A stretch of 64,000 nt of DNA, taken from Bacteroidetes bacterium GWA2_40_15 (GTDB lineage: Bacteria; Bacteroidota; Bacteroidia; Bacteroidales; VadinHA17). Shown here piece after piece: positions 9,952 to 27,543 of this stretch. Under the pieces are notes generated by a model. That model was not told the origin of the DNA. It ran no database searches and was given only the letters and a program-made list of their open reading frames with translations. Position 1 is the stretch's first letter; each line of letters starts with the position of its first letter. The position numbers and the translations under genes were made by a program. Location: contig MENI01000110.1 in the NCBI GenBank assembly GCA_001768195.1, positions 35,062-99,061 on the forward strand. The letters run 5' to 3'.

Positions 9952-9998
9952 CTTTTGTCTTTTGTCTTTTGTCTTTTGTCTTTTGTCTTTTGTCTTTT
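9952..9998. repeat. 7-bp tandem repeat CTTTTGT, six perfect copies
   Basis: Six head-to-tail copies of CTTTTGT run from 9952 to 9993, preceded by degenerate CCTTTTGC/CCTTTTTC units from about 9915. They fill the 93-bp gap between the dehydrogenase and the kdgF-like gene within one operon, and the array touches the stop codon of the dehydrogenase. Copy-number variation here would not alter a protein but could change the leader of the downstream genes. Confidence 0.85.
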
Positions 9999-11032
9999 CA
10001 GAAATCTATCATCGCTTTCATGACACCATCACTGTAGCCTGCAACAAGGTCGAAAGCCTCTTTGGTTTGGCTGAACGGGAACCGGTGAGTGATAATATTC
10101 TCAATTTTTATTGTTCCTTTTTCCATCAGTAACAGGGATGGTTCCACACAATCGACCTGGCGGCGAATGAACTGGAGTGATATCTCTTTACGCCTGGTCT
10201 TTTCTACATTTACGATCCAGTTATCGAATTCAGGTATTCCGACAACAATTAACTTACCTCCCGGTTTTAATATTTCAATTGCCTGATCCATAGCTTCCTG
10301 CTGCCCGCAGCATTCAAAAACCACATCGAGTCCGAGAGATTCCTTATTATATAACTTTTCTACGATATTTTCATTCAGGGGATTGCCTGTGAGAGTCGCT
10401 CCCTCATTTTTTGCAATTGCCAGCCTTCTGTCGATCTTGTCAGATACAAAGAATGACTCTGCTCCTTCAGCCTTTGCTGCAAGCATGACACTCATCCCAA
10501 TCGGGCCATACCCCAATATCCCGGTTTTCAGATTTTTTACGCCATTTGATTTTTTTACAGAATAAACCCCTATCGCAAGTGGTTCAGAGATAGCGCCATG
10601 GTCTGTTGTTAGATTTCCTATTAGCGGGAGGCAGCTCTCTTCGGGCATTACAATATACTCCATAAGGCATCCTTCTGCCTGTCCAGGACATCCGAGGAAC
10701 TTTAGTTTACGGCAAGTGTGATGTCTGCCTGAAAGACACTGGTCACACTTCCAGCATGGCATTGCAGGCTCAATGGCTATCTTATCTCCGGGTTTGACTC
10801 TTTTTACACCTGTTCCTGTTTCCACAACTACTCCGGCACCCTCATGGCCAACAGCAAAGGGGTATTCGACAACCTGTGAACCGATCTGACCCTGTGTGTA
10901 ATAGTGAATATCAGATCCGCAAATGCCAACAACTGACATTTTTATCTTTACGTCGTTGGGATTTACAAGAACCGGTTCAGCGATCTCTTTTATTTCCATC
11001 TTCCTGATCCCTGTGAGCATCATTGCTTTCAT
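9998..11032 (-). CDS. Zinc-dependent polyol/sugar-acid dehydrogenase (MDR family)
   Basis: A 344-residue medium-chain dehydrogenase. Catalytic zinc ligands are visible in GICGSDIHYY and GHEGAG. The structural-zinc cysteine cluster is CWKCDQCLSGRHHTC, and the nucleotide-binding loop is GYGPIG. Relatives oxidise sorbitol, L-idonate or galactitol with NAD(P). As first gene of the KdgF-GH28-ROK-UxuA operon it may act on a uronate-derived aldonate or keto acid. It has its own -7 box 20 bp upstream and is divergent from the isochorismatase gene. Exact substrate is not readable. Confidence 0.8.
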   Translation of the reverse strand: MKAMMLTGIRKMEIKEIAEPVLVNPNDVKIKMSVVGICGSDIHYYTQGQIGSQVVEYPFAVGHEGAGVVVETGTGVKRVKPGDKIAIEPAMPCWKCDQCLSGRHHTCRKLKFLGCPGQAEGCLMEYIVMPEESCLPLIGNLTTDHGAISEPLAIGVYSVKKSNGVKNLKTGILGYGPIGMSVMLAAKAEGAESFFVSDKIDRRLAIAKNEGATLTGNPLNENIVEKLYNKESLGLDVVFECCGQQEAMDQAIEILKPGGKLIVVGIPEFDNWIVNVEKTRRKEISLQFIRRQVDCVEPSLLLMEKGTIKIENIITHRFPFSQTKEAFDLVAGYSDGVMKAMIDF

Positions 11033-11811: not shown

Positions 11812-12750
11812 ATGAGAAAGATTTACGGAATAGGAGAGACGGTACTTGATATTATTTTCAAGGATGGTCAGCCACAGGCTGCAAAGGCAGGAGGATCGGT
11901 TCTTAACAGCGCTGTATCAATGGGCAGGATGGATTTGCCTGTATCATTTATAAGTGAATATGGTACTGATGATGTAGGAGAGCTTATTAACAGCTTCCTT
12001 AATGAAAATGGAGTAAACACATCATCAGTTCATCGTTTTGATGATGGTGCAACTTCCCTTGCTCTGGCATTCCTTGATGATAAGAATGATGCACATTATA
12101 CTTTCTACAAGGATTTTCCCGGTAAACGTCTGAATATTCATTTCCCTGTATTACAGGAAGATGATATTCTTCAGTATGGTTCATTTTATGCAATATGGCC
12201 TGAGATCAGGACGAAAATTAAAAAGTTTATTCAGAGTGCACATGATAATGGCGCTCTGGTGATTTATGATCCGAACTTCAGGAAGTCTCACCTCTCTGAG
12301 CTGGGATCACTGAAGCCTCTTATAATAGAGAATATGCGGATGTCGGGTCTGATAAGGGGATCTGATGAGGACTTCCGGAATATCTTCAGGGTCAACAGTG
12401 CTGATGAGGCATGGGAAGTAGTAAAAAATTACTGTATGTGTCTGGTATATACTTCAAATACCGACGGTGTATATGTGAGAACAAACTCATTCTCAGGGAA
12501 ATTCCCTGTCAGGACAATTACTCCTGTGAGCACTATCGGAGCAGGTGACAATTTCAATGCAGGAATGATCACATCAATTTACAGAAACAAAATCACTAAA
12601 AATCAGCTTTATAAAATGGGTCTGAAGGAATGGACCATTGTTATTGAAACAGCAGTTGATTTTGCAACTCACGTATGTCTCAGTTATGAGAACTATATTG
12701 ATTTAGCGTTTGCAAGGAGGTATTTTTCGGCTTCAAACGACCAGATATAG
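11812..12750 (+). CDS. PfkB-family carbohydrate kinase
   Basis: A 312-residue ribokinase/fructokinase-type enzyme with the N-terminal GGSVLNSA segment (27-34) and the C-terminal STIGAGDNF motif (240-248; catalytic Asp D246). PfkB kinases phosphorylate ketoses or nucleosides on a primary hydroxyl. Its 3' end overlaps the convergent SorE-like gene by 58 bp (12693-12750), and it is the only kinase beside the ketose/polyol-phosphate operon. It is therefore a candidate for producing the phosphoketose used there; that role is inferred. A TAAATTTG box at 11767-11774 may be its -7 element. Confidence 0.8.
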   Translation: MRKIYGIGETVLDIIFKDGQPQAAKAGGSVLNSAVSMGRMDLPVSFISEYGTDDVGELINSFLNENGVNTSSVHRFDDGATSLALAFLDDKNDAHYTFYKDFPGKRLNIHFPVLQEDDILQYGSFYAIWPEIRTKIKKFIQSAHDNGALVIYDPNFRKSHLSELGSLKPLIIENMRMSGLIRGSDEDFRNIFRVNSADEAWEVVKNYCMCLVYTSNTDGVYVRTNSFSGKFPVRTITPVSTIGAGDNFNAGMITSIYRNKITKNQLYKMGLKEWTIVIETAVDFATHVCLSYENYIDLAFARRYFSASNDQI

Positions 12751-13955
12751 TCGTTTTTTGAAACAATTTCGTGCAATCCTGCGTATAATATATTATCCCT
12801 TCCCATTTCTCCAAGCTTATAAAGCGACACCAGCGGCATTGAAATGTTCGTATAGATAAGCTTTTTACCTCCCGGAATCTGCGGAAGGTTCATGGTTGTA
12901 TCAACAACTGCGTCAAGTCCTCCGATATGTGTGATCATAATTGCAGGATTAATTTTCCCTTCACCCATAAGTTTTAGCGATTCGAGCATATCATCTGTGT
13001 TTCCTCCTGATGTGCCTGCAATGTGTGTAAATGCATAATGTACATTGTAAAAGTTGAATTCTGCCCTGAATTCAGGATTGGTAGGTCCGGCAAAGAAGTT
13101 CAGGCAGCCGTCGAAACCGAGTATGCAGTCTCCCTGCTCAACAACGTTCTTTACGGGAGCAAAAATAAAGACATCATCAAATCCGGTTCCGTCTGTCAGC
13201 TCACGCAGGTGCTTCACCGGATTATTCATTTTTCCTGTATTGACATACATCAGCTTTACACCCTCTTTTGCTGCATGTTCAGGAGTGAACAGGCAAGCCG
13301 CCCTGGCAAGACGGTTATCGTCGATATCCGTAACCACAAGTAATCCTGGTTTACGCTCCTGGTGAAGAGCATAATCGATTGCCCCAAGGCCCATGGGACC
13401 AACTCCAGCAAGTATTGCCATTTTTCCTCTTCTTCGTATACCCATTTCATGATTGTATGTCCCTGGCGGAATATGATAGCTGGCATGGAATGCACCTACT
13501 ATGCATGACATTGGTTCAGACAGGGATGCAGGGAAGAACGCTTCCCCGTCATATGGAAGAAGGCAGTTGGCCTCCATAACAATTGAAGGAATGATGATAT
13601 GAGTAGCATCACCTCCTATAAACCGGTATGAATATCCGGGGGCATTCAGTGTTCCCATATGGTTCATAGCAGGCTGAATGGAAAATTTCTGACCGGCACT
13701 GAACCTGTCCTTCCATTTATTTCCCACTTCAAGGATCACACCGGCAAACTCATGCCCGATCATAGTCGGATTGATATGGATATCATCAGGAACCCTTTTA
13801 TGATCGGCACCCTGAATGGCTGCTTTATGTGACGACATGCAGATGCTGTCGGAGATAACCTGTGCAAGTATCTCATCGTCTTTCATTGCCGGGAGTTCAA
13901 ATTCCTCAAGCCTGAGATCTTTCTTTCCGTAAATTCTGACTGCTTTGGTCTTCAT
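12693..13955 (-). CDS. SorE-like L-sorbose-1-phosphate reductase (Zn-type MDR)
   Basis: A 420-residue zinc-type dehydrogenase. Several stretches match what I know of Klebsiella SorE: EHKRVPDD-like at 51-58 (here DHKRVPDD), PAMGHEFAGV-like (here TMIGHEFAGV), GCLNFFAGPT, THIGGLDAVVDT, IPGGKKLIY and a terminal AEKYLLA. SorE reduces L-sorbose-1-phosphate to D-glucitol-6-phosphate with NADPH. It is the last gene of the long minus-strand operon, 24 bp after the aldolase-SDR fusion, whose SDR half would take the next step. The gene shares 58 bp of 3' end with the convergent PfkB gene. The family is firm; the natural substrate may be another ketose phosphate. Confidence 0.8.
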   Translation of the reverse strand: MKTKAVRIYGKKDLRLEEFELPAMKDDEILAQVISDSICMSSHKAAIQGADHKRVPDDIHINPTMIGHEFAGVILEVGNKWKDRFSAGQKFSIQPAMNHMGTLNAPGYSYRFIGGDATHIIIPSIVMEANCLLPYDGEAFFPASLSEPMSCIVGAFHASYHIPPGTYNHEMGIRRRGKMAILAGVGPMGLGAIDYALHQERKPGLLVVTDIDDNRLARAACLFTPEHAAKEGVKLMYVNTGKMNNPVKHLRELTDGTGFDDVFIFAPVKNVVEQGDCILGFDGCLNFFAGPTNPEFRAEFNFYNVHYAFTHIAGTSGGNTDDMLESLKLMGEGKINPAIMITHIGGLDAVVDTTMNLPQIPGGKKLIYTNISMPLVSLYKLGEMGRDNILYAGLHEIVSKNDYIWSFEAEKYLLANAKSI

Positions 13956-13979
13956 TATGTTGAATTTTCTATGTGACGC

Positions 13980-15953
13980 CTATCCTAACATTATTTGTCC
14001 GCCGGTGACCGGTATTGCCTGCCCGGTTTCGTATTCCTGTTCAATGATGTAAAAGATCGCCTTCATAACATCTTCAAGTCTGCAGCCTCTTTTCATGGGT
14101 ACCTGCTCTTCGTAGAATTTCCTTACATCTTCAATATTCCTTGCTCCCGGAACCTTGCCGGTCTTTAAATACTGTACAAACAATCCGGTATGAGGATCGG
14201 ACCATAACGGACCTTCATAAAAATTACCGGGGCATACAGAGTTGACCTTTATCCTGTAAGGTGCAAGCTCCATGGCAAACGACTGAGTAAGTCCTATACC
14301 ACCAAACTTTGCTCCGGCATAGGCAAAATTACGATTACTTCCCCTTAGTCCTGATTTTGAGTTTATCTGTATAATATCAGTGAAATAGTCATTATTCTCA
14401 TGATTCTGGATCTTCATAACCTCTGAAGCATACTTGGCACAATGAAAATAACCATTATAGTTAACTTCTGTTGTTTTTGAGAATATGTCGGGTTCCATCT
14501 CATCGAGCCCGCCGGCTTTCAATACTCCGGCATTGCTTACCATCAGATCCAGCCCACCCAACTCCATGACAGTTGAACTTATAAGCTCTTTAACTGATGC
14601 AGGATCTGAAACATCGGTCCTTATAAAAACTGCTTTTCCGCTGGATTTCTGAGCCGAAAGCTTTTCAACAAATGCTTTGCCTGCCTCTTCATTAAGATCA
14701 GCCACAACAACATTCATATTTTTCGAGTACAGAGCTTCTGCAATACCGGCACCGAATCCCTGCGCTCCTCCTGTAATAATTGCTGTTTTATTATTCAGAC
14801 TATTCTCTGAACCTGCTGCCTGTGATATTTTCCTCCTGTAATTTTCAACTTCCCATTTATCAATAAATGAAACCTGCTCGGGCGAAAGGAATTTAATCCC
14901 CCCACATCCTGATGCATAGTGGCTTATCCTTATAAGATCCTCATAAATATCAAGTGCTGATTCGGCAGATGCATAGCTTTCTGCTATTGCAAATATCCCC
15001 ATATCTTTAATTACCAGTATTTTAGGAATGAAGCCATATTCTTCGTTAAACCTGGGTAACTGGTAACGCACCGACTCTGTAATCTTTTCTGCAGATGATG
15101 ATTGTTCTACATACATGTAGCGTGTCTTGCAATATACAATGATGTCAGGTGTGAGCGGTAAAGATATCTTGTGAAACTCCTGCTGACTCTTGTAGTATTC
15201 TGCAATCAGTGAATTGTTACGGTGCCTTATAACACCCGGCTTATTGCCTGAGAGAAGCATCCTTAAAGCCGGCAGTGTTTTGTGCAGTATAGGGTTGTAC
15301 GCTATTGGTTCCGGCTCTCCGACCGGAGTTATCACTTCGCCTATTATTCTGATTAGTTCATCATAAATGTCTCTGATCTCATCTGTGGTATCGGCACTTA
15401 CAAATGAACCATGATTTTCAAGGAAAATTACTTTGGGGTCATTTGAATGATTCTCCCTGTAAGCAAGGATCTCCGATTCAAGTTTTTTAAAGAGAATATA
15501 GCCGGGATCTGTATATGGAATGAACAGGACCGGGTCGCCAAAAAGCTTATGAGTCAGGCTCCTGGCATTTCTGCTGCAGAGCAATCCGTTAATGAGGGTA
15601 GGATGGAGGTGTACCACAAACCTGTATTGTATAAGTTCATGAAGCGATGTTTCTACAGATGGTCTTTTGTTCTTCGAAGGATCTGAGATGCTTTTGAACA
15701 GATCATTTTTTACCTGTTCCTCTCTTCTTGCAGGGTCATCAGAATACTTTTCCGATGATATGAGATGCAGTTTTTCCCTGTCGAGAGCAACGAGTCCCTC
15801 TTCAGAAAGTTCTGCAAGAGGATAGCCGCTGGCTTTTATCCACATTGTAGTATCATCCTTGAAGGATGTATTCCCTCCTCCGGCTATTACATATTCCTTG
15901 TTGCTGCCATAAAGTCTTGATATGGTTATCAGATCTTTTATTTCCGGCTTCAT
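13980..15953 (-). CDS. Class II aldolase fused to sorbitol-6-phosphate-dehydrogenase-like SDR
   Basis: A 657-residue two-domain enzyme. The N-terminal part (about 1-240) is a class II aldolase/adducin domain with GGGNTS, a VVHLHP zinc pair and an ENHGSF third ligand. A linker follows (about 240-385), then a Rossmann SDR from about 398, with TGGAQGFGAG for NAD and YAGAK as the Tyr-Lys pair. The C-terminus VPMKRGCRLEDV...TGQAIPVTGGQIM resembles E. coli SrlD. The same architecture occurs in rhamnulose-phosphate aldolase/lactaldehyde dehydrogenase fusions, so that is the main alternative. Its place between a PHP protein (1-bp gap) and the SorE-like gene favours a polyol-phosphate role. Confidence 0.78.
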   Translation of the reverse strand: MKPEIKDLITISRLYGSNKEYVIAGGGNTSFKDDTTMWIKASGYPLAELSEEGLVALDREKLHLISSEKYSDDPARREEQVKNDLFKSISDPSKNKRPSVETSLHELIQYRFVVHLHPTLINGLLCSRNARSLTHKLFGDPVLFIPYTDPGYILFKKLESEILAYRENHSNDPKVIFLENHGSFVSADTTDEIRDIYDELIRIIGEVITPVGEPEPIAYNPILHKTLPALRMLLSGNKPGVIRHRNNSLIAEYYKSQQEFHKISLPLTPDIIVYCKTRYMYVEQSSSAEKITESVRYQLPRFNEEYGFIPKILVIKDMGIFAIAESYASAESALDIYEDLIRISHYASGCGGIKFLSPEQVSFIDKWEVENYRRKISQAAGSENSLNNKTAIITGGAQGFGAGIAEALYSKNMNVVVADLNEEAGKAFVEKLSAQKSSGKAVFIRTDVSDPASVKELISSTVMELGGLDLMVSNAGVLKAGGLDEMEPDIFSKTTEVNYNGYFHCAKYASEVMKIQNHENNDYFTDIIQINSKSGLRGSNRNFAYAGAKFGGIGLTQSFAMELAPYRIKVNSVCPGNFYEGPLWSDPHTGLFVQYLKTGKVPGARNIEDVRKFYEEQVPMKRGCRLEDVMKAIFYIIEQEYETGQAIPVTGGQIMLG

Positions 15954-15954
15954 G

Positions 15955-17190
15955 CTACTGTTTTTTTAAGTAATATTCAATAACCAGTTGTCCCAGGGAT
16001 GCCAGCTCATCTCTCTGGTCAGCGCTGTGTTTACCGTCAGGCAAAACATATCCCTGCCTTCCATCAGCCCTGAGGTACTGATGGGCAGCTATTATACAGG
16101 CTCCTTCCCATGCAATCTTCTTAAGGGATTCATCAAGTGGGACCGATCCTCTTGTTGATACTGTAAGAGGAAACATTTCAGGTGTATTATGCTCGGTACC
16201 AAAAGTAATAATGAATCCTTTTGAGTGGAAAAACTCAACGAATTTTTTCAATATTGCACCATCGTTTCTTCCGGGAATCAGCTCTATACATTCTACTTCA
16301 AGTTCTCTGAGTGATCTCCATAATTTTTCAGGATCTGATTCGAATTCAGTAAATTTTCCTGAAGGGTCATCCAGAAGCACCGGGTAGCATGGTATGCCAC
16401 CTGCCTTTACAATGATCCTGATAATCTTTTTAAGTTCCAGGAATGATTTTTCATCCTCTTCAACAAAAGCGGCACCACCGTTTTTCAGAAGGTTTGATCT
16501 TATCTCATTCTCGAAGGCTGCTGAATTGCTTACTCCTGTTTTTGATTTTTTCCCGTTATAAAGTCCTTCAATGAATTGAAGCTGCTGCTCTTCAATTGAA
16601 AAGTTTCTTTGCGCCAGAATACGCAGAGCTTTTGCCAGATGCCGCTCACGGACAAGGTCGTGAGCATACTCCTTCTTTATCTGTTCATAGCTGAGCTTAA
16701 GTGAAGGATCCTGTTTTTCAATAATCTGATTCAGTTTTGCTATCATTGCTTTAATCTGCATCTGGCTCTCTCTGATCACACTCCTCAGTTGCTGCCTGAG
16801 CATAAAGCCTGTATGAAAAGGATAATCAAGGCCTTTCCCGCTGAAATAGATGCGTCCCGGATTATTCGGATCATTGATCCTGATCCCGTTTTTTTGTTCT
16901 TCCTTAAGCAATCCGATGAATTCTATGTTAAAAAGAGGAAAGATCCGGTTTAATACACAGCCTTTGTGGAATGAGTCATAGCCATCTGCCACATAGAAAT
17001 CATTAATCCCGAGGACAGAGATATTTTCATTCACTGCCATTCTGAAAACAGTTTCCATATCTGAGAATGCACTGAAAGAATATGGTGTATGGATATGTCC
17101 GTTTACTTCGCGATACTCAGGTATAGTAAAACCCTTCATTTCATTAACAAGTGTTTCAACGGGCGGAAAGTCAGAAAGAAAGTGCTTCAT
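15955..17190 (-). CDS. PHP-domain phosphoesterase
   Basis: A 411-residue protein with the PHP metal motif VNGHIHTPYSFS at 30-41 and a further FGTEHNTPEM segment near 335-344, consistent with a multinuclear metal site. PHP proteins hydrolyse phosphate esters such as histidinol phosphate. The long middle (about 100-240) is helical and specific to this subgroup. It sits one base before the aldolase-SDR gene and 8 bp after the aldo/keto reductase gene, so translation is probably coupled. In this operon it may remove phosphate from a sugar intermediate; no direct evidence for the substrate. Confidence 0.72.
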   Translation of the reverse strand: MKHFLSDFPPVETLVNEMKGFTIPEYREVNGHIHTPYSFSAFSDMETVFRMAVNENISVLGINDFYVADGYDSFHKGCVLNRIFPLFNIEFIGLLKEEQKNGIRINDPNNPGRIYFSGKGLDYPFHTGFMLRQQLRSVIRESQMQIKAMIAKLNQIIEKQDPSLKLSYEQIKKEYAHDLVRERHLAKALRILAQRNFSIEEQQLQFIEGLYNGKKSKTGVSNSAAFENEIRSNLLKNGGAAFVEEDEKSFLELKKIIRIIVKAGGIPCYPVLLDDPSGKFTEFESDPEKLWRSLRELEVECIELIPGRNDGAILKKFVEFFHSKGFIITFGTEHNTPEMFPLTVSTRGSVPLDESLKKIAWEGACIIAAHQYLRADGRQGYVLPDGKHSADQRDELASLGQLVIEYYLKKQ

Positions 17191-17198
17191 GAATTCTT

Positions 17199-18197
17199 TT
17201 ATATCCTGGTTTCTAATTTAAGATCAGCGAGAAGGTCATTTATCTTTTTCATCTCTTCACCGGTCAGCTTAAAATCAACTGCTTTTACATTATCAAGAAC
17301 CTGTTCCGGATTCCTGGCCCCGGCAAGAACACATGTTATTCCCGGCTGCTCTTTTGTCCAGTTAAGAGCCAGCTGGGAAAGAGTTACACTTCGTTCATCA
17401 GCTATCACCTTAAGTTTAACTGTAAGATCTATTATTCTCGATAGGTTAGGCTCCTTATAATATGGAGTATCAGGCCGGCTGTCTCCGTCTCCGAAAGAAT
17501 GACCTTTCTTGAATTTGCCTGTAAGCAGTCCTCTCTGCAGCGGGCTGTAAGCAAGTATTCCGATATTATTATCTATGCAGTAAGGAACGATCTCTTTCTC
17601 GATTTCACGGTTTACCATGCTGTAAGGGATCTGGTTTGATGCTATCTGAAGCGTTTTAAGTGCTTCAGCCATCAGATCATGGGAATAATTAGATACAGCG
17701 CCTGCTCTGATTTTTCCTTTGCTGATAAGCAGTTCCAGAGCTTCCATCGTTTCTGAGACAGGTGTTGTGGCATCAGGCCAGTGGATCTGATACAGATCGA
17801 TATAGTCGGTGCCCAGGTTTTTGAGGCTCCTGTCGCAATCGGCCAGCACACGCTCCTTCGATGAGTATGCATAGATATCGATATCTTTGCCGTTGTTATC
17901 CTGTGTTGAGAAGTAAAACTTGCCCTTCTTCTCATCCCATATCATTCCGAATTTGGTGAGAATCTGTGCCTTATCTCTTTTTCCTTTGACTGCTTTTGCA
18001 ACAAGCTCCTCGCTCAGACCGAAACCATAAACAGCAGCTGTATCGATTGTTGTCATCCCGTGATCAATGGCAGTCTCAACAGCCCTTATAGCATCCTTTG
18101 CATCAGCGCCTCCCCAGAGCCATCCTCCGATAGCCCATGCCCCGAATGCAATTTCAGATACTTGGATCTCCGATTTTCCCAGTGTCCTGTATTCCAT
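17199..18197 (-). CDS. Aldo/keto reductase
   Basis: A 332-residue (beta/alpha)8 NADPH-dependent reductase. The family tetrad appears as D52 (TIDTA), Y58 (AAVYG), a Lys near 84 (ILTKFG) and the His of the YQIHWPD segment. The C-terminal LAGARNPEQV segment binds the nucleotide phosphate. It probably reduces an aldehyde produced by one of the two aldolases of the operon, or oxidises an inositol-like polyol. A repeat-filled 105-bp gap separates it from the upstream HAD gene, so it could have some independent expression. Confidence 0.85.
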   Translation of the reverse strand: MEYRTLGKSEIQVSEIAFGAWAIGGWLWGGADAKDAIRAVETAIDHGMTTIDTAAVYGFGLSEELVAKAVKGKRDKAQILTKFGMIWDEKKGKFYFSTQDNNGKDIDIYAYSSKERVLADCDRSLKNLGTDYIDLYQIHWPDATTPVSETMEALELLISKGKIRAGAVSNYSHDLMAEALKTLQIASNQIPYSMVNREIEKEIVPYCIDNNIGILAYSPLQRGLLTGKFKKGHSFGDGDSRPDTPYYKEPNLSRIIDLTVKLKVIADERSVTLSQLALNWTKEQPGITCVLAGARNPEQVLDNVKAVDFKLTGEEMKKINDLLADLKLETRI

Positions 18198-18223
18198 AAT
18201 TTATTTTTTATTTAACAACATCT

Positions 18224-18304
18224 AACCCACCCCTAGCCCCTCCCAGGAGGGGAACCGAAAATCCCTACCATTGCGCCGTTGCGCCGTTGTGCCGTTATGC
18301 CGTT
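18224..18304. repeat. Dispersed CCCACCCCTA palindrome plus 8-bp tandem repeat
   Basis: 18224-18254 is one copy of a repeat seen again at 24247-24277 and inverted at 37341-37369. Its core CCCCTCCCAGGAGGGG can fold as a hairpin. It is followed at about 18271-18304 by four imperfect copies of the 8-mer TTGCGCCG, running into the last codons of the HAD gene. It lies inside an operon, so it may act as an attenuator or mRNA-stability element; that is inference. Confidence 0.7.
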
Positions 18305-18947
18305 ACCATTCCAGCACCTCATCCGGTACTTCAAGAAGTGATGAGTAAATCCAGTCAGCTTCATGAAGTTCATCGACACTGAAAGAAGTTGTTACTGCAA
18401 GGCACCTGCAACCTGCCGACTTTCCTGATCTTATCCCGCTCACAGCGTCTTCAACCACAAGGCATTCCTCTGGTTTTAGTCCGAGGTTTTCTGATGCTCT
18501 GAGGTATATATCAGGGAAGGGCTTCTTGTTAGTCACATCCTCTCCGGTTATGATCGAGTGAAACGTTTCGGGCGGCAGTCCTATTTCAGTCAGGTTAACA
18601 AACATCTTGACACTGTCGGCGCTTGTGGCCAGTGCCATTTTTAATCCTTTATTACTGCACCTTGAAATAAATTCCAGAGCTCCGGGAAGAGCATACAGGT
18701 TATTCCTGACAATCTCTCCGAATACTTCATAGGTCCGTGCTTTAACAGCGGGCAGGTCAACCGTTATCCCATATTTCTCCGCTACCCCTCCTATGTACTT
18801 GTTTTCTCCCATCCCTACAAAAGGATGGAAATCCTCAGGTTTTGCGTGTACTCCAAGCTCTTCAAACATCATGATTGCAGCTTTTGCGATGAATGCTTCA
18901 GAATCAACCAGGACGCCATCCATATCAAAAAGTACTCCTTTTATCAT
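18303..18947 (-). CDS. HAD-IA phosphatase/phosphomutase, beta-phosphoglucomutase-like
   Basis: A 214-residue HAD protein with motif I DMDGVLVDS (nucleophile D8, D10), a helical cap, a KPFPDIYLRA segment carrying the motif III Lys, and VVEDAVSGI motif IV. Such enzymes remove phosphate from sugar phosphates or isomerise hexose phosphates. The start codon overlaps the stop of the class II aldolase gene by 4 bp, so both products are probably made together. This suggests it processes the aldolase substrate or product. Confidence 0.82.
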   Translation of the reverse strand: MIKGVLFDMDGVLVDSEAFIAKAAIMMFEELGVHAKPEDFHPFVGMGENKYIGGVAEKYGITVDLPAVKARTYEVFGEIVRNNLYALPGALEFISRCSNKGLKMALATSADSVKMFVNLTEIGLPPETFHSIITGEDVTNKKPFPDIYLRASENLGLKPEECLVVEDAVSGIRSGKSAGCRCLAVTTSFSVDELHEADWIYSSLLEVPDEVLEW

Positions 18948-19582
18948 CTGAAGATTTTTTCAATTTCAAAAGCCCTGCCCCGTGTAAGTGGACTTTTCTT
19001 TCTGGTAAGGTTCACTATCAGAGTCATTTTTGCAGCGTTTTCAAGGACCTCTGTTTTGTCGAAAGCCTGTAAAAGATTCGTACCTGTGGTTAGTACGCCA
19101 TGATTTTCAAGAAGAAGTATATCGGATTTCTCAATATATTCTGCTGCAAGATTTGCCAGACAGGCTGTTCCCATAAGAGCATATGGTACAACTACAGGTG
19201 TTCCGAGTATGGCACATGCTTCAGCTGTAAGATTGGTTTCGATGCTTAACTTCATGGCTGTAAAGGATGAAGCACACACCGGATGGGCATGTACAATTGC
19301 TTTAATATCAGCCTTCCTTTTATAAATGGCCAGGTGCATCCCCGATTCAATGGAAGGTTTCAGTTCAGGAGTAAGATTCTCACCGAGGATGTTCATTAAA
19401 CCAACCTCTCTCCATTTCATTCTGCCCTTGTCGGTTGCCGAAGGTGTTATGACTATTATGTCATTCGAAATCCGCAGACTTATGTTACCTCCTGATGTAG
19501 AAGTGAGGCCCTGTTTGTACAGGCGCCTCATGAACATGGCAACCTCTTTACGCTCCTTTTTAAATCTGTTGTTGTATTTCAT
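18944..19582 (-). CDS. L-fuculose-phosphate-type class II aldolase
   Basis: A 212-residue class II aldolase/adducin protein, the usual length for FucA-like aldolases. Catalytic E79 (SIESGMH) and zinc ligands H98, H100 (VHAHP) and H161 (ENHG) are all present, along with the phosphate-binding TSGGNIS (29-35). Such aldolases split ketose-1-phosphates into DHAP and an aldehyde. It lies 3 bp after the HAD-IIA gene and overlaps the next HAD gene by 4 bp. The substrate could be fuculose-, ribulose- or 5-deoxyribulose-type phosphates. Confidence 0.82.
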   Translation of the reverse strand: MKYNNRFKKERKEVAMFMRRLYKQGLTSTSGGNISLRISNDIIVITPSATDKGRMKWREVGLMNILGENLTPELKPSIESGMHLAIYKRKADIKAIVHAHPVCASSFTAMKLSIETNLTAEACAILGTPVVVPYALMGTACLANLAAEYIEKSDILLLENHGVLTTGTNLLQAFDKTEVLENAAKMTLIVNLTRKKSPLTRGRAFEIEKIFR

Positions 19583-19585
19583 GTT

Positions 19586-20374
19586 TTACTGCTGAACGAG
19601 ATCAATTACTCCGTTAAGTATATACTTCGGTCTGTAAGGGAAATTATTAACCTCATTGCGCGAAGTTATTCCGCTTAAAACCAGCAGAGTATCAATTTCA
19701 GATTCCATTCCGCACCTGATATCAGTGTCCATCCGGTCACCTATCACAACAGCGTCTTCTCTTTTTACTCCCAGTTTTTTGAGGGCAATTCTCATCATCA
19801 GCGGATTGGGTTTTCCGACAAAATAGGCTTTCTTACCCGTGGCAATCTCAATAGGGGCTATCAGTGCCTTTGTCGAAGGAGTGATCCCATTCTCAACGGG
19901 ACCGCTGATATCGGAGTTGGTTCCGATGAGTTTGGCCCCTTTTATCACAAGGTTTACGGCAAGTTCTATTTTTTCAAAATTATAACTGTGAGGATCCCCT
20001 ACGACCACATAATCGGGATTGACATTATTAACAGTATATCCAACGCTGTACATTGCATGGATCAGACCTGCATCTCCTATAATGTAAGCGCTCCCGTTGG
20101 GATTCTGACTTGAAAGAAAAGCCGCTGTTGCCAGTGCACTTGTATAGAAATGTTCCTCTCCCGAATTTATTCCCAGTCGTTTAAGTTTTTCATGAAGTTC
20201 TTTGGGTGTCCGTTCAGCAGAATTTGTAAGGAAAAGATATTTTTTCCCTGATGATTCGAGCCAGTTTACAAAATCGGTAACGCCCGGAAGGAGTCTGTTA
20301 CCATGGTAAATAACTCCGTCCATATCTATTATGAACCCTGCTTTTGATCTGATTTTCTGGATATCCTGTTCCAT
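19586..20374 (-). CDS. HAD-IIA (NagD-like) sugar phosphatase
   Basis: A 262-residue HAD-IIA hydrolase. Motif I is DMDGVIYHGNRLLPG, motif II is LTNSAERTP, the cap domain covers about 80-180, and VIGDRMDTDI is motif IV. NagD-like enzymes dephosphorylate glycolytic-type sugar phosphates in the cytoplasm. The gene lies 49 bp after the E1 gene and 3 bp before the aldolase gene, so two HAD phosphatases bracket one aldolase. Confidence 0.82.
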   Translation of the reverse strand: MEQDIQKIRSKAGFIIDMDGVIYHGNRLLPGVTDFVNWLESSGKKYLFLTNSAERTPKELHEKLKRLGINSGEEHFYTSALATAAFLSSQNPNGSAYIIGDAGLIHAMYSVGYTVNNVNPDYVVVGDPHSYNFEKIELAVNLVIKGAKLIGTNSDISGPVENGITPSTKALIAPIEIATGKKAYFVGKPNPLMMRIALKKLGVKREDAVVIGDRMDTDIRCGMESEIDTLLVLSGITSRNEVNNFPYRPKYILNGVIDLVQQ

Positions 20375-20423
20375 ATTGAATTAATTTGAGCTGCAAAGAT
20401 ATCAAAAAGGCGTTATACAGAAG

Positions 20424-22892
20424 TTACACTCCTTCTTTATTAAGTCTTATAGCTTTTTCTGTAGAGCAGTCTGTAGTTATCTGATGCCCCTTCAGCGGAA
20501 TTATTTTTTCATGGATTGCATCCAGTATCCATCCGGGTTGAGGGAAGAAGTATTCTTCCATCTCATAAGCAGGTGTTATCCAGTTCCTTGATCCGACAAC
20601 AACCGGAGGAGCATCAAGGTGATCAAAGGCCAGTTCGGTGATTGTCTGGGCCATCTCTTTCAGGAACGATCCTCTGGCTGAGGCATCGCTGGCAAGAACA
20701 ATCCTTCCGGTCTTTTTAACAGATTCAATAACAGGTTCATAATTGAATGGAACAAGCGATCTTGCATCAACGATCTCTGCACTTAACCCATATTTTTCTT
20801 TCAGGGTATCAGCAACCTTCAGAACAGGATAAAGAGTTGCCCCTATTGTGAGGATTGTAATATCTGTTCCAGCTCTTTTAATATCGGGTTCGCCCAGCGG
20901 GATCTCATAATAACCTTCAGGCACTCCGCCTTCATGAAACATCTCGCCTATATCGTATATCCTCTGGCTCTCGAAGAAAACAACCGGATCGGTTCCCTGC
21001 AGTGCAGTATTCATAAGACCTTTAGCATCATAAGGTGTTGCCGGGAATACAACCTTTAAACCCGGGATGTGTGCTGTAAGAGCTGTCCAGTCCTGTGAAT
21101 GCTGGGCACCGTATTTTGATCCGACAGAGACCCTAAGTACCACAGGCATCTTAATGATATTACCGCTCATTGCCTGCCATTTGGGAAGCTGATTAAAGAC
21201 TTCATCTCCGCAACGCCCCAGGAAATCGCAATACATTATTTCAGCAATAACTCTTCCTCCGCACATCCCATATCCAATAGCGGTTCCCACTATGGCTCCT
21301 TCTGAAATTGGTGAATTGAAAAGACGATGGTAAGGCAGCGCTTCGGTAAGACCCCGGTATACTGCGAATGCTCCGCCCCAGTCGCGGTTCTCTTCTCCCC
21401 ATGCTGCAAGGGTCGGATCTTTGTAAAAACGGTCAATGATGGCTTCAAATATGCCATCACGGAGCTGGAAAAGTCTTGCTTTTGAGACAAGTTTTCCATC
21501 TTTGTCCTTATAAAACCGCTCCTTTGTTTTCAGGGATTTAACCCTTGGATTCTCTTCAAGAGGCATAAGAACATCAGGTGTACCTTCCTCCATTTTATCA
21601 ACCGGGGTATTTGAAAACATCATTTTCCCGATCCAGTCCGGATCTTTTTTCATATCAAGTCGTGGGGATATTGTATCATCAATAGTCAATTTAAGTATCC
21701 GGGAGAGCAATTCTTTTGTCTCTGAAGTAATTTCATCCAGTATTTCCTGTTTGGCAATTCCTGAGGTGACCAGGGATTTCCCGTATGATAGTATGGAATC
21801 TTCCTGCTGCCAAGCCTCTATCTCCTCTTTTGACCTGTAGGATGATGCATCGGAGGGAGAGTGCCCGCTAATCCTGTAGGTAAGCGTGTCAAGCATAACG
21901 GGTCCTTTCTTCTCGTTCAATATCTGTTTTTTTCTTCTGAAAGCATCAATAACCGCGAGTGGGTTATATCCATCAATTCGTTCAGCATGCATCGATTCAG
22001 GATTTATACCTGCTCCGACTCTGGCAAGGATGTCAAATCCCATAGTTTCCCCCATAGTTTGTCCTCCCATACCATAAAGGTTGTTCATGAAGTTGAAGAT
22101 CAGTGGCAAACCTCCCTTTTGATCTCCTGTCCAGAGTGTTTTGTACTGGTCCATTGTGGCAAAGCATATTCCTTCCCACACAGGGCCACAGCCCATTGAA
22201 GCATCACCGATATTGCATACAACGATTCCCTGTTTACGGTTTATTTTCTTATACAGGGCAGCTCCGACGGATATATCACCTGAACCTCCGACTATTGCAT
22301 TGTTGGGATATATTCCAAAGGGAGTAAAGAAGGCATGCATTGAACCTCCGAGTCCCTTGTTGAAACCGTTCTCACGGGCAAAGATCTCTGCAAGCGCTCC
22401 ATAGAGAAGGAAGCTGACCGCAAGGTGCCTGATAGTACCCTGGAATCTCTTTTCAACAACTTTAAGCGCTGATCCTCCGAAATAGCTCTTCATCACATTA
22501 TAAAGGGTATCTTCATTGAGGCGGTGGATTGCTGATAGACCTTTGGCAAGTATTTCGCCGTGGCTGCGGTGTGATCCGAAGATATAGTCGTTGGCATCAA
22601 GGTTATAAGCCATCCCGACTGCTGATGCTTCCTGTCCTATTGAGAGGTGGGCAGGTCCGGGATGATTATAGGGAATGCTGTTATATTCGTTGGTTGTTTT
22701 GATTAGATTAAGCATGGTTTCAAATTCCCTTATAACAACCATGTCGTGATAGATCCTTACGAAATCCTCACTTGTGAAATTCTTCTTTTCTTCCTCAATT
22801 GATTTGTTATACTGGTTGACAGGTATCTTACCGAACTCAATGAATTTTGGCTTGCGTACCACCTTTGGATTAATATTCTGACTCTTTGGCAT
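20424..22892 (-). CDS. 2-oxoacid dehydrogenase E1, fused alpha and beta subunits
   Basis: An 822-residue thiamine-diphosphate enzyme that decarboxylates a 2-oxo acid and passes the acyl group to E2. The alpha part (about 40-400) has the TPP motif GDASMGCGP followed by MNNLYG. The beta part (about 470-820) carries SEGAIVGTAIGYG and the AEIMYCDF segment. Fused E1 proteins occur in Bacteroidota branched-chain oxoacid or acetoin dehydrogenases; this one is long because of N-terminal and inter-domain extensions. It is 49 bp downstream of E2 and precedes sugar-phosphate genes, an unexpected partnership. No E3 gene is in the window, so a shared E3 must come from elsewhere. Confidence 0.85.
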   Translation of the reverse strand: MPKSQNINPKVVRKPKFIEFGKIPVNQYNKSIEEEKKNFTSEDFVRIYHDMVVIREFETMLNLIKTTNEYNSIPYNHPGPAHLSIGQEASAVGMAYNLDANDYIFGSHRSHGEILAKGLSAIHRLNEDTLYNVMKSYFGGSALKVVEKRFQGTIRHLAVSFLLYGALAEIFARENGFNKGLGGSMHAFFTPFGIYPNNAIVGGSGDISVGAALYKKINRKQGIVVCNIGDASMGCGPVWEGICFATMDQYKTLWTGDQKGGLPLIFNFMNNLYGMGGQTMGETMGFDILARVGAGINPESMHAERIDGYNPLAVIDAFRRKKQILNEKKGPVMLDTLTYRISGHSPSDASSYRSKEEIEAWQQEDSILSYGKSLVTSGIAKQEILDEITSETKELLSRILKLTIDDTISPRLDMKKDPDWIGKMMFSNTPVDKMEEGTPDVLMPLEENPRVKSLKTKERFYKDKDGKLVSKARLFQLRDGIFEAIIDRFYKDPTLAAWGEENRDWGGAFAVYRGLTEALPYHRLFNSPISEGAIVGTAIGYGMCGGRVIAEIMYCDFLGRCGDEVFNQLPKWQAMSGNIIKMPVVLRVSVGSKYGAQHSQDWTALTAHIPGLKVVFPATPYDAKGLMNTALQGTDPVVFFESQRIYDIGEMFHEGGVPEGYYEIPLGEPDIKRAGTDITILTIGATLYPVLKVADTLKEKYGLSAEIVDARSLVPFNYEPVIESVKKTGRIVLASDASARGSFLKEMAQTITELAFDHLDAPPVVVGSRNWITPAYEMEEYFFPQPGWILDAIHEKIIPLKGHQITTDCSTEKAIRLNKEGV

Positions 22893-22941
22893 ATCTTTAT
22901 TTTTTCGTTTATTTTTTTCTCCCTTTCTCCCCCTCGCTTAC

Positions 22942-24162
22942 TTAAAATTGAAAATTCTCGATTTGGTTCTTAATCTCCTTAAGGAATAATGTAGCCGGTC
23001 CCCCATCAATTGCCCTGTGATCATAAGTCAGCGATAGTCCGATATATGGTACAAAACCGAAAACATTGTTCCCCAGGCTGGCAGGTCGGTTAATAATGGT
23101 GCATACTCCAAGTATTCCCACCTGTGGCAGGTTGATCACCGGTGTAAACATCTCCACCCCGTAGTTCCCAAGGTTGGAGACTGTGAAAGAGGCGGAGGTG
23201 CTCTGTATAAGTTCAGGACTGATACTTCCTTTTTTACATGAATCAGCTGCTGATTTCAGTTCCCTGGAAAGGGTAGGCAGATCCATCTCATTAGCATTCT
23301 TAACAGCAGGGACCATCAATCCGCGGGGGGTATCGACAGCCAGACCGAGATGTACTTTACTGAAGGTTTTTATCCTGTCTTCGAGGAAATGACTGTTGGC
23401 TTCAGGGAATTTTTCAAGAGCTCTTATAACACACCAGCATATCATGTCGTTCAGAGTGATATCCTGCTGTTTCCTGTCTGTTAAAAGCTTATTTTTAATT
23501 ACTAGTCTTAGTTCCAGCAGGCGACGCACATCGGCGCTCATGTGGTGTGTAAGCTGGGCCGAATTCTGCAGTGAACTGTGCATTGTTCTGGCAATGATCT
23601 TTCTTATGTTGCTTAAAGGCTGCTCGGTAAATTCAGCAGTTGTGGAAATAACTTCTTTATTCCCGGGCCGGGCCATTGACAATGCTTTTTCAATATCTGC
23701 AGCAACAACCCTTCCACTAGGTCCTGTTCCCCTGAGAGAGTTGTAGTTTATACCTTTCTCTTCAGCCATCTTTCTGGCTTTTGGCGATATCCTGGTTCTT
23801 TCCTCAGGGGCAATATCAGGTTCATCTGCTTTTATTTTGCCAACCGGTGTATTGCCAACTGCCTCATTTGCCTCTGCACTCATTTTCTCTCCCTGTACTC
23901 CAACAAACGCAGAGATGTCTTCGCCGCTTTGTCCGATCACTGCTACATTGAATAGTACCGGTACTTCATCTCCTTCATTGTAAAAAATATCAAGAAGGAT
24001 CCCTTCGGATGATGATTCAAGATCGAAAGCTGCTTTGTCAGTCTCATAGGAAAAGAGAATTTCCCCGGTTGTAACCTTGTCGCCCTTGCTTTTAAACCAT
24101 TTGGTTATGATGCAGGTCTCTACCGATTGCCCCTGCTTTGGCATTATTACTGCTGTTGCCAT
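22942..24162 (-). CDS. 2-oxoacid dehydrogenase E2, lipoyl acyltransferase
   Basis: A 406-residue E2. There is one N-terminal lipoyl domain (1-80) with the lipoylated Lys in ETDKAAF (K43), an E3/E1-binding domain at about 125-160 (SPKARKMAEEKG...GTGPSGRV), and a catalytic CoA-acyltransferase domain with the YDHRAIDGG active site (H382). It forms the core of the complex with the downstream fused E1. It is the first gene of the GntR-controlled operon, with a long leader of about 240 bp. Acyl specificity is unknown: pyruvate, acetoin and branched-chain acids are all possible. Confidence 0.88.
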   Translation of the reverse strand: MATAVIMPKQGQSVETCIITKWFKSKGDKVTTGEILFSYETDKAAFDLESSSEGILLDIFYNEGDEVPVLFNVAVIGQSGEDISAFVGVQGEKMSAEANEAVGNTPVGKIKADEPDIAPEERTRISPKARKMAEEKGINYNSLRGTGPSGRVVAADIEKALSMARPGNKEVISTTAEFTEQPLSNIRKIIARTMHSSLQNSAQLTHHMSADVRRLLELRLVIKNKLLTDRKQQDITLNDMICWCVIRALEKFPEANSHFLEDRIKTFSKVHLGLAVDTPRGLMVPAVKNANEMDLPTLSRELKSAADSCKKGSISPELIQSTSASFTVSNLGNYGVEMFTPVINLPQVGILGVCTIINRPASLGNNVFGFVPYIGLSLTYDHRAIDGGPATLFLKEIKNQIENFQF

Positions 24163-24246
24163 TTTAAAGATGTTATTTCGTGTCCTGTTTCTTTTTTCTT
24201 TTTTCTTGGGCTTTCTTCACCTCCCACTCCTTACCTCTCATGATTC

Positions 24247-24277
24247 AACCCACCCCTAACCCCTCCCAGGAGGGGAA
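24247..24277. repeat. Dispersed CCCACCCCTA palindrome, copy 2
   Basis: This copy differs from 18224-18254 by one base (TAAC for TAGC) over 31 bp and contains the hairpin-forming core CCCCTCCCAGGAGGGG. It lies in the leader between the E2 start and its promoter, on the untranslated part of that mRNA. Confidence 0.75.
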
Positions 24278-24341
24278 CTCTAAGTCCAAACCTTACTGCC
24301 TCATACCTCACTTCTCACCTCACGCCTTCCTCCTTTCGCCA

Positions 24342-24357
24342 ACTTGTTATTATAAGT
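24342..24357. promoter_or_regulatory. Palindromic operator, copy 1 (ACTTGTTATTATAAGT)
   Basis: This 16-bp imperfect palindrome matches the copy at 24425-24440 at 13 of 16 positions; both fit ACTTGTwwTTAyAAGT. Its centre is 83 bp from the other copy. It lies downstream of the predicted E2 transcription start, a place where a bound repressor could block elongation. GntR/HutC operators commonly contain GTA and TAC half-sites, which fits. Confidence 0.55.
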
Positions 24358-24407
24358 AAGTCAAATATTATCAATTGATTATAGAAATATCTAATAATCA
24401 GATACTA

Positions 24408-24438
24408 CAAAAATAAATATTTTAACTTGTATTTACAA
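24408..24438 (-). promoter_or_regulatory. Promoter of the E2-E1 operon, overlapping operator copy 2
   Basis: On the minus strand TATTTTTG (24408-24415) fits TAnnTTTG, and a TTG at 24436-24438 lies 20 bp upstream as a -33 element. The TTG is inside the right arm of the palindrome at 24425-24440, so a bound regulator would cover the -33 box. Confidence 0.5.
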
Positions 24439-24440
24439 GT
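24425..24440. promoter_or_regulatory. Palindromic operator, copy 2 (ACTTGTATTTACAAGT)
   Basis: The arms ACTTGTA and TACAAGT are perfect inverted repeats with a 2-bp spacer. The site is 38 bp upstream of the GntR start codon and overlaps the predicted -33 box of the divergent E2 operon, so one dimer could control both directions. The adjacent UTRA-type GntR protein is the obvious candidate binder. Confidence 0.65.
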
Positions 24441-24478
24441 AAAATGTTATATATTTACAGAAAAATTATCATCTGCAG

Positions 24479-25195
24479 ATGGTTGTTCCGAAAACAATAC
24501 CCCGGTACCGAAAACTTTATGAGGTACTACGGAAACACATCCTCGATGGTGTTTACAAGGAAGGAGACCTGTTACCATCGGAAAATGAGTTGTGTCAGTT
24601 ATACGGTATGACACGGCCCACTGTCCGTCAGGCTCTGAGCACACTCTCCAATGACGGTTTTATAAGGAAACACCAGGGAAAAGGAAGCATTGTACATCAT
24701 CTTCCGAGGGCAATAGGAATACTTTCTGTATCAGGAACAACTTCTGCTGTTGGTGACCGCAATCTTAAAACGAAGATCATAAAGAAACCTGTTCTGATAC
24801 AATGGCCTCAGAGTTTTATGTTTCCCTTATCTGAACTTGAAAATGAGTCAGGTTGCATATATATGGAAAGACTAAGGCTTCTCGACGATGTACCAATATT
24901 CTATGATATCAGCTATATAGGCAATATTAATCTTCCCAGAATAACCTCCCGGCAGTTTGAGAACAGATCACTGTTCCGGATACTCAGGGATCATTACCGT
25001 GTTGAGATAAAAGGAGGGGAGCAGAGATTAAAAGCAATACCGGCTAATGCGAGGATCAGCAAATTTCTTAAACTGCATAAAAACCAACCGGTCCTTCATC
25101 TCGAAAGGAAGATGGAGACCAATAATCCCGGTCTTTTTGTCTATTCTTCAATATTCTGCAATACAGAGAAATATTCCATATTCGGAAGATTCTAA
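24479..25195 (+). CDS. GntR-family regulator, HutC/UTRA subfamily
   Basis: A 238-residue regulator. The N-terminal winged helix (about 7-70) contains the family signature GDLLPSENELCQLYGMTRPT and a KHQGKGSIV wing. The C-terminal UTRA ligand-binding domain (about 90-235) usually senses a phosphorylated sugar or similar effector. It is divergent from the E2-E1 operon, and two palindromes lie in the gap. The natural reading is a repressor of that operon, relieved by a pathway sugar phosphate. The ATG at 24479 gives a full-length helix-turn-helix region. Confidence 0.88.
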   Translation: MVVPKTIPRYRKLYEVLRKHILDGVYKEGDLLPSENELCQLYGMTRPTVRQALSTLSNDGFIRKHQGKGSIVHHLPRAIGILSVSGTTSAVGDRNLKTKIIKKPVLIQWPQSFMFPLSELENESGCIYMERLRLLDDVPIFYDISYIGNINLPRITSRQFENRSLFRILRDHYRVEIKGGEQRLKAIPANARISKFLKLHKNQPVLHLERKMETNNPGLFVYSSIFCNTEKYSIFGRF

Positions 25196-25267
25196 AAAAT
25201 CCTTATTTTTATGGTTTCTTAAATGTTAATGGCAACTTATACTAACTATTAATAAACCTGATTGATT

Positions 25268-26590: not shown

Positions 26591-26614
26591 CAGCGCATTT
26601 CTGCTGATATTATA

Positions 26615-26646
26615 AAGAACCACTCCGACAGTGGTTCTTTTTTTTT
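26615..26646 (+). terminator. Intrinsic terminator after the Gfo/Idh/MocA gene
   Basis: Perfect 10-bp stem AAGAACCACT / AGTGGTTCTT with a 5-nt loop, followed by a T run to 26646. It starts 24 bp after the stop codon. Confidence 0.9.
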
Positions 26647-26649
26647 TCT

Positions 26650-26736: not shown

Positions 26737-26743
26737 TTTATCT

Positions 26744-26751: not shown

Positions 26752-26776
26752 ATAATTAAACTAAACTATCTTCGAA

Positions 26777-27532: not shown

Positions 27533-27543
27533 AGAAACTCAGG

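Follow-up and report, generated by a model that had tools for sequence, protein, structure and literature searches.

A conserved Bacteroidota operon with a fused E1 subunit and its probable part in L-rhamnose and L-fucose catabolism

Plant cell walls, algae and host glycans are the sources of L-rhamnose and L-fucose. For L-rhamnose, the excerpts of PMC3870299 describe two kinds of route, aldolase cleavage to lactaldehyde and a non-phosphorylated route via rhamnonate, and present RhaEW as a characterised rhamnulose-1-phosphate aldolase/lactaldehyde dehydrogenase. Here, we analyse a 64,000-nucleotide stretch (the window) of contig MENI01000110.1 from Bacteroidetes bacterium GWA2_40_15, part of a 4.77-Mb genome that is 99.98% complete, and within it a nine-gene operon that encodes a fused dehydrogenase E1 subunit together with its E2. 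Linked and co-occurring genes indicate that this operon very probably belongs to the catabolism of L-rhamnose and L-fucose. As the best explanation, held with about even confidence, we propose that it encodes the downstream half of their use, via a flip of the keto group and an acetoin-type cleavage. The neighbourhood is conserved and appears to be a catabolic module; no description of this pathway was found in the literature searched, which agrees with the claim of an earlier, sequence-based note (the original prediction) that no described pathway has this gene set.

Among the described systems, the L-sorbose pathway of Klebsiella (SorE with SorD/SrlD) resembles the operon in its ketose-1-phosphate reductase, which is of the same family (49-50% identity), and in a short-chain dehydrogenase (SDR) that acts on hexitol phosphates. 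It differs in that the cluster lacks a phosphotransferase system and has a rhamnose/fucose isomerase and kinase instead, that an E1/E2 complex follows, and that the cluster SDR groups with SrlD and not with SorD. The acetoin dehydrogenase complex (AcoABC/AcoL) would be alike in directing E1, E2 and E3 at a methyl ketone, and is alike in the acetoin-type E2 pieces found beside rhizobial relatives of the E1 and in a common β-chain segment. However, the operon E1 is fused (822 aa) and sits on a long branch of its own, the window E2 is of the acyltransferase type, and no acoX or sigma-54 regulator gene was recognised in the operon. RhaEW shares the aldolase_II-SDR fusion, a similar length (657 residues against 676 model positions) and the link to rhamnose, but the fusion is 25-27% identical to plasmid-borne RhaEW and its SDR half falls into another clade. 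In the degradation of autoinducer-2 by LsrK/LsrG/LsrF, a phosphorylated methyl-ketone sugar yields acetyl-CoA and a sugar phosphate, as in the route proposed here; LsrF differs from the proposed E1 in depending on neither thiamine nor NAD.

To define the conserved neighbourhood, genome contigs were scanned with the E1; of the 361 relatives obtained, 80 loci with an E1 71-90% identical to that of the window were kept, nearly all from Bacteroidota and three from Clostridia (L107, L108 and L111). Members were counted by tblastn matches of at least 60 bits in the 34 loci that span at least 19 kb. The E2 gene is present in all 34, beside E1, the SDR, whether or not fused to an aldolase, in 32, the UTRA regulator in 31, the PHP-fold protein in 30 and the SorE-like gene in 26. 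A PfkB-family kinase occurs in 13 and a GFO gene near the operon in 11. We regard the HAD-IIA, HAD-IA, small aldolase and aldo/keto reductase (AKR) genes as optional, since they are kept in 14, 12, 12 and 6 of these loci, respectively. In the three Clostridial loci the PHP match lies below 60 bits; a PHP-like protein is nonetheless encoded in L107 and L111. An E3 gene is present in 18 of the 80 loci. The E1 family is rare, being found in 2/395 genomes of a phylum sample, the window's own genome among them. The original prediction had tied the operon to a single pathway and made this depend on whether relatives ever keep E1/E2 with the aldolases; some do, and the idea holds on the conserved neighbourhood.

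Several of these loci join the cluster to rhamnose genes. A rhaA gene and the E1 cluster lie no more than ~10 kb apart in L076, in L102/L112 (648.5 bits in L112 against a cut-off of 572), in genome G043 and on contig C107 of genome G463. The cluster is adjoined by rhaA, a rhaT-like gene and a kinase in L102 and L112, and by rhaA and a kinase in L076. A rhamnose operon adjoins it in G043, where the canonical aldolase near rhaA survives only as residues 2-76 and 99-170 of 430, split over two frames. In G463 the cluster is joined to rhaA, a rhaT-like gene and an alpha-L-rhamnosidase-like gene (931.8 bits, below the cut-off of 1720); this metagenome-assembled genome holds three copies of the E1 cluster (L082, L100 and L103) and three rhaA genes. 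The Clostridial locus L107 encodes a rhamnulokinase over the NCBIfam cut-off (530.1 against 527.95) alongside lipA, lipB, E2, E3, E1, SDR, PHP and SorE-like genes. L108 likewise contains lipA and lipB, L111 has a relative of rhamnulokinase, and in the genome of the latter (G457) rhaA adjoins lipA-lipB on a 4.8-kb contig. For fucose, the order lipB-lipA-909 aa-fucI-135 aa-PfkB-operon is contiguous in G016 (L066), the 135-aa product being a membrane protein. The fucI gene of the window's genome (1065 against a cut-off of 775) is divergent from lipA-lipB, and lipA stands next to fucI in 5/5 same-genus regions read. Altogether, rhaA, a rhamnulokinase-like gene, fucI or fuculokinase occurs in 12 of the 80 loci (L082, L100 and L103 being one genome), or in 14 if L110 and L114 are counted, whose FGGY kinases were not compared with models. 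In the window's genome, a rhaT-like gene, rhaA and an FGGY kinase gene share one contig, where no aldolase adjoins them.

The same association is seen between genomes. In a sample of the order with one genome per family (n = 24), rhaA is present in 4/4 genomes with E1 and 6/20 without it (p = 0.020), and fucI in 4/4 and 4/20 (p = 0.0066). In the genus sample (n = 37, including the window's genome), E1 is absent or broken in G023, G024 and G033, and G030, whose E1 is cut by a contig end, was counted as positive. Here, rhaA is found in 33/34 genomes with E1 against 0/3 (p = 0.0005) and fucI in 31/34 against 1/3 (p = 0.04), while the control araA gives 30/34 against 3/3 (p = 1). G035 has an E1 with five in-frame stops and an rhaA in two pieces; if it is counted as broken, the values become 32/33 against 1/4 for rhaA (p = 0.002) and 30/33 against 2/4 for fucI (p = 0.08). 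G023 is the telling case: its E1 and E2 are disrupted by stops and frameshifts, it has lost rhaA and fucI, and no PHP or fusion match was seen in its stretch from the UTRA to the SorE-like gene. Among the genomes behind the named loci, some of which overlap the genus sample, 23/26 (13/14 and 10/12) contain rhaA. Both linkage (to rhaA, rhamnulokinase, fucI, fuculokinase and lipA/lipB) and co-occurrence point to L-rhamnose and L-fucose as the probable substrates, in place of the L-sorbose, sorbitol, tagatose and inositol originally put forward.

The enzymes proposed to act on the sugar phosphate were then assigned. The zinc enzyme is 49-50% identical over its full length to annotated SorE of Klebsiella, Serratia and Citrobacter and 53% identical to YggP; among the 25 of 87 plasmid records listed, SorE/YggP-type matches span 47-53%, followed by one at 26.7%. 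On this gap, its earlier assignment as SorE-like held. The best solved structure for the SDR half of the fusion is sorbitol-6-phosphate dehydrogenase (160.5 bits, next 106.3). The NCBIfam model of that enzyme, PRK12384 (cut-off 307), is the best model for the SDRs of the window and of Anaerophaga by 62-75 bits, both scoring below the cut-off (233, next model 158, and 231.7, respectively); the Clostridial cluster SDR scores above it (381.9) and has srlD among its plasmid matches at 47-51%. RhaW-type models give 128-134 bits on the window SDR. In a tree that included the RhaW domains of three annotated RhaEW proteins, the cluster SDRs join SrlD at 96/95, with SorD and RhaW elsewhere. Structure match, best model and tree thus support the SrlD-like enzyme and the ketose-phosphate chemistry that had been predicted. 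A plain RhaEW reading of the fusion was dropped, as its SDR half lies outside the RhaW clade; the whole fusion scores 245.5 against the RhaEW model TIGR02632, below the cut-off of 567.75. L-Sorbose/sorbitol was also dropped, since the SorE and SrlD families fit but the linked genes do not, as was myo-inositol (IolM model 57.7 against 450 on the SorE-like reductase). The hexose phosphates on which SorE and SrlD act are not deoxy sugars, and together the two enzymes convert a ketose-1-phosphate via a hexitol phosphate into a ketose-6-phosphate read from the other end. Such a flip of the keto group is, judging from the families involved, fairly probable in this operon.

The E1 and E2 score below the cut-offs of the pyruvate dehydrogenase (PDH) models of NCBIfam, at best 221.5 against 321 and 257.8 against 445, respectively, and the best solved relatives of the E1 are E1 chains of PDH and branched-chain ketoacid dehydrogenase (BCKDH) type at ~205 bits or less. 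Two trees were computed that included E1 references taken from annotated plasmid operons; for the second, one faulty row had been dropped and others thinned. In both, the E1 family forms one clade (support 100/100) on a long stem. A β-chain segment, DF.G.C.D..FNQ..K, occurs in this family and in three acetoin operons and is absent from the compared PDH-like and BCKDH-like sequences. Relatives at 51.9-53.5% identity are found in 16 plasmid records of Rhizobium, Agrobacterium and Pleomorphomonas, of which four loci were read (L115 and L117-L119). Each combines the E1 with a lipoyl-domain protein of ~80 aa and an alpha/beta hydrolase. Three scanned proteins of E2 type match the acetoin E2 model best, below its cut-off because the protein is split. 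The nearby kinase is of PfkB type or a xylulokinase over the cut-off (~9 kb away in Agrobacterium), two of the loci carrying xylulokinase above its cut-off. No aldolase is annotated in the four stretches, for which the plasmid gene tables are incomplete. By trees and model scores, the fused E1 of 822 aa establishes an enzyme family of its own, found in Bacteroidota, Clostridia and on rhizobial plasmids. The plasmids of L117, L118 and L119 also carry sugar ABC transporters, sugar-binding regulators and a split acetoin-type E2, and one of these E1 relatives lies on pRL8 of R. johnstonii; the excerpts of PMC3333776, which treats pRL8, contain no mention of acetoin, rhamnose or dehydrogenase E1 that we could find. 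The most distant Bacteroidota E1 found (61%; L132 in G180) is flanked on one side by a MtlD-superfamily-like gene, itself preceded by a GluP/FucP-like transporter, and on the other by a SorE-like gene; no SDR or aldolase gene is in its vicinity. A second sugar cluster of the window's genome also contains paired E1 and E2 genes (contig C44; L211, 7205-14475). It comprises genes for a UTRA regulator, separate E1 alpha and beta chains, a tagatose/fructose-bisphosphate aldolase-like protein, E2, HAD, an FSA-like aldolase and a PfkB kinase, and its E1 falls outside the fused family in the tree.

From the computed gene families, conserved linkage and rhamnose/fucose association, we infer a pathway in which RhaA or FucI would form the 6-deoxy-L-ketose and a sugar kinase would phosphorylate it at C1 to L-rhamnulose-1-phosphate or L-fuculose-1-phosphate. 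PfkB, named as the pathway kinase in the original prediction, stays plausible, being contiguous with fucI and the operon in G016; other genomes have a rhamnulokinase or fuculokinase away from the operon. The SorE-like enzyme would then reduce C2 to give a 6-deoxyhexitol-1-phosphate, and the SrlD-like SDR would oxidise C5, which yields, numbered from the other end, a 1-deoxyketose-6-phosphate of the form CH3-CO-CHOH-R. Acetoin has the same CH3-CO-CHOH- end, and the thiamine chemistry would be that of acetoin dehydrogenase. E1 would form hydroxyethyl-thiamine diphosphate and free the remainder as aldotetrose-4-phosphate, after which E2, with E3 from elsewhere, would complete acetyl-CoA and NADH. 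If the stereochemistry of SorE holds at C2, Fischer projections give D-threose-4-phosphate from both L-fuculose-1-phosphate and L-rhamnulose-1-phosphate, because the centre in which they differ, C3 of the 1-deoxyketose, becomes the aldehyde. We consider an action of E1 on a 1-deoxyketose phosphate about as probable as improbable. The 2-oxo acid that had been predicted as its substrate seems less likely, though conceivable: no operon gene clearly makes one, and in the rhizobial loci read the partners of E1 are an acetoin-type E2 and a sugar kinase.

A precedent exists in the reverse direction: according to the excerpts of PMC3424233, purified PDH makes 1-deoxy-D-xylulose from pyruvate and glyceraldehyde (a title cited there covers acetoin dehydrogenase), and a mutant PDH E1 rescues the loss of DXS in E. 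coli. This is the bond that the proposed E1 would cleave. More tentatively, and somewhat doubtful to us, the fused E1 could found a group of 1-deoxyketose-phosphate dehydrogenases in which acetoin-type complexes reverse the DXS-like C-C bond, comprising a third rhamnose/fucose route in Bacteroidota and Clostridia and the use of 1-deoxyketoses in rhizobia. In the latter, kinase and complex would turn 1-deoxyketoses, e.g., 1-deoxy-D-xylulose, into acetyl-CoA and triose phosphate. If true, acetyl-CoA would arise without pyruvate or lactaldehyde, which would alter the fermentation products predicted for these sugars in anaerobic Bacteroidales and Clostridia, and an E1 family currently annotated as alpha-ketoacid dehydrogenase would gain a function.

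A number of observations weigh against this reading. Foremost, it does not explain the retained RhaE-like aldolase domains. Of the 32 genomes searched, most retain such a domain, be it fused or free-standing; clear exceptions are G461, G477 and G471 (where a different aldolase adjoins rhaA), and G470 and G479 are ambiguous. The domain adjoins rhaA in three Clostridial genomes, as an aldolase route expects, and the fused aldolase-SDR has the layout of RhaEW. The domain may serve a parallel branch that cuts ketose-1-phosphates the usual way, may with the FucA-like enzyme interconvert rhamnulose-1-phosphate and fuculose-1-phosphate through reversible aldol reactions, or may cut the 1-deoxyketose-6-phosphate. 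In ten loci the SDR has lost its aldolase half; this was not taken to mean that the aldolase itself is lost, a separate RhaE-like protein being encoded elsewhere in most of these genomes. As to E1, its tie to acetoin E1 (81/65) appears in one tree and is absent from the second, so that a sister position was abandoned, and its catalytic histidines, being common to nearly all kinds of E1, do not discriminate. A KdsD-like gene and a transaldolase gene, neighbours that may handle the tetrose phosphate, were discarded as strong evidence, since the former matches a Bacteroides capsule isomerase at 271 bits and may be a housekeeping Kdo gene. Regarding the sugar, lipA next to fucI was seen in 0/3 regions outside the genus, and the genes flanking lipA look housekeeping-like by eye. 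At the order level araA also tracks E1 (3/4 against 3/20, p = 0.035), hence part of the signal reflects sugar generalists that carry many pathways, and the statistics ignore kinship among genomes that are not independent. The tie of fucI to E1 within the genus weakens to p = 0.04 or 0.08 on re-check of broken copies, rhaA is missing in 3 of the 26 genomes above (G465, G469 and G477), and G031 keeps E1/E2 without rhaA and without the rest of the cluster nearby.

The strongest rival we judge unlikely though serious. Here, the RhaE-like and FucA-like enzymes would split rhamnulose-1-phosphate and fuculose-1-phosphate in the ordinary way into dihydroxyacetone phosphate and L-lactaldehyde, the SDR would oxidise lactaldehyde to lactate, some enzyme would make pyruvate, E1 with E2 and E3 would be a dedicated pyruvate dehydrogenase yielding acetyl-CoA, and the AKR would form propanediol from lactaldehyde. 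Apart from the RhaEW-like layout, it agrees with both aldolases of the window operon yielding the same aldehyde, with the window's genome having four class II aldolase matches only (one by araA on contig C92, one on C43 and two in the operon), and with lactate dehydrogenases joining some rhamnose regulons, as the excerpts of PMC3870299 state. Yet the SDR is SrlD-like and not RhaW-like, the SorE-like ketose-1-phosphate reductase would be left without a task, and no lactate-to-pyruvate enzyme was recognised in the operon. Likewise, E1 and E2 stay below the PDH cut-offs, and the four rhizobial loci read pair E1 with a sugar kinase but with no annotated aldolase. Anaerophaga (G461) has rhaT, rhaA and kinase genes plus the E1 cluster, but its single class II aldolase match is of AraD length (the draft may have gaps).

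Joining an aldolase and an SrlD-like SDR in one protein would make sense if the fused domain, or the FSA-like aldolase of some clusters, cut the 1-deoxyketose-6-phosphate into hydroxyacetone and glyceraldehyde-3-phosphate, with E1/E2/E3 acting on hydroxyacetone or methylglyoxal and the AKR forming propanediol. FSA prefers hydroxyacetone as donor, an FSA-like gene occurs in six loci, including that of Anaerophaga, where the RhaE-like domain is absent, and a methylglyoxal reductase model of NCBIfam matches the AKR (232 bits, cut-off 550). We nevertheless deem this quite improbable: formaldehyde or formate would have to be set free by E1, FSA-like and RhaE-like genes coexist in Thermophagus, and we know of no class II aldolase of the fusion's family that uses a hydroxyacetone-type donor. 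The same flip could also operate on ordinary ketose phosphates, with E1 giving glycolyl-CoA and the rhamnose/fucose genes as merely frequent neighbours. The non-deoxy substrates of SorE and SrlD, a D-lyxose/D-mannose isomerase-like gene and PfkB beside the E1 of L080, the hexose transporter of G180 and the behaviour of araA would fit, but the rhamnulokinase inside a Clostridial operon, the linkage of rhaA and lipA/lipB and the loss of rhaA where E1 is broken make it highly improbable. Scarcely credible is that E1/E2 represent a housekeeping dehydrogenase, of pyruvate or branched-chain type, which happens to adjoin a sugar operon: their Pfam domains are general ones, but the linkage is kept from Bacteroidota to Clostridia, and the E1 family stands apart from the compared PDH-like and BCKDH-like sequences and is as rare as described above.

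The operon consists of nine minus-strand open reading frames at 12693-24162 with a divergent GntR/UTRA regulator (Table 1), and both the positions and the domain families originally given for it are confirmed, the families by Pfam and NCBIfam searches. The intergenic gaps are 24, 1, 8, 105, -4, 3, 49 and 49 bases in 3' to 5' gene order, and 316 bases separate the 5' gene from the regulator. As a scan of the region for consensus promoters and terminators gave no excess over shuffled sequences, it is from the spacing only that we infer transcription as a single unit. No E3 gene lies within the nine genes. The Pfam match of the PHP protein is weak (21.5 bits against a cut-off of 26.4); its AlphaFold2 model, however, is confident (pLDDT 93.3), and the top Foldseek matches are PHP phosphoesterases, which sustains the earlier call and points to no substrate.

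Table 1 Features of the operon and its immediate neighbours in the window.
Feature	Position	Strand	Basis	Remark
E2 with lipoyl, E3-binding and acyltransferase domains, 406 aa	22942..24162	-	Pfam/NCBIfam	first gene of the operon
Fused E1 alpha/beta, 822 aa	20424..22892	-	Pfam/NCBIfam, trees	proposed 1-deoxyketose-phosphate-cleaving subunit
HAD-IIA phosphatase-like protein, 262 aa	19586..20374	-	Pfam/NCBIfam	optional
Class II aldolase, FucA-like, 212 aa	18944..19582	-	Pfam/NCBIfam	optional
HAD-IA phosphatase-like protein, 214 aa	18303..18947	-	Pfam/NCBIfam	optional
AKR, YdjG-like, 332 aa	17199..18197	-	Pfam/NCBIfam	optional
PHP-fold metal-dependent phosphoesterase-like protein, 411 aa	15955..17190	-	weak Pfam match, predicted fold	usual member
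Fusion of N-terminal RhaE-like class II aldolase and SrlD-like SDR (~residues 384-657), 657 aa	13980..15953	-		SDR proposed to form the 1-deoxyketose-6-phosphate
SorE/YggP-family zinc dehydrogenase, 420 aa	12693..13955	-		proposed 6-deoxyketose-1-phosphate reductase
GntR/UTRA regulator	24479..25195	+	Pfam	divergent
PfkB-family kinase	11812..12750	+		convergent, overlaps the end of the operon's last gene; candidate ketose 1-kinase
Second zinc dehydrogenase (sugar/polyol type)	9998..11032	-		often adjoins the operon

Upstream of the regulator (25262-28674), the window encodes a GFO/IDH/MocA oxidoreductase, a protein with a 3-keto-disaccharide hydrolase domain and a NagX-like membrane protein. 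Genes of UxuA-like, ROK kinase-like, GH28-like, GH5-like and DUF4838 type flank the operon at 6032-9572 and 29100-33003, and these surroundings suggest a region devoted to plant polysaccharides. Further along, at 57941-58353, lies a tmRNA gene with the tag ENNYALAA.

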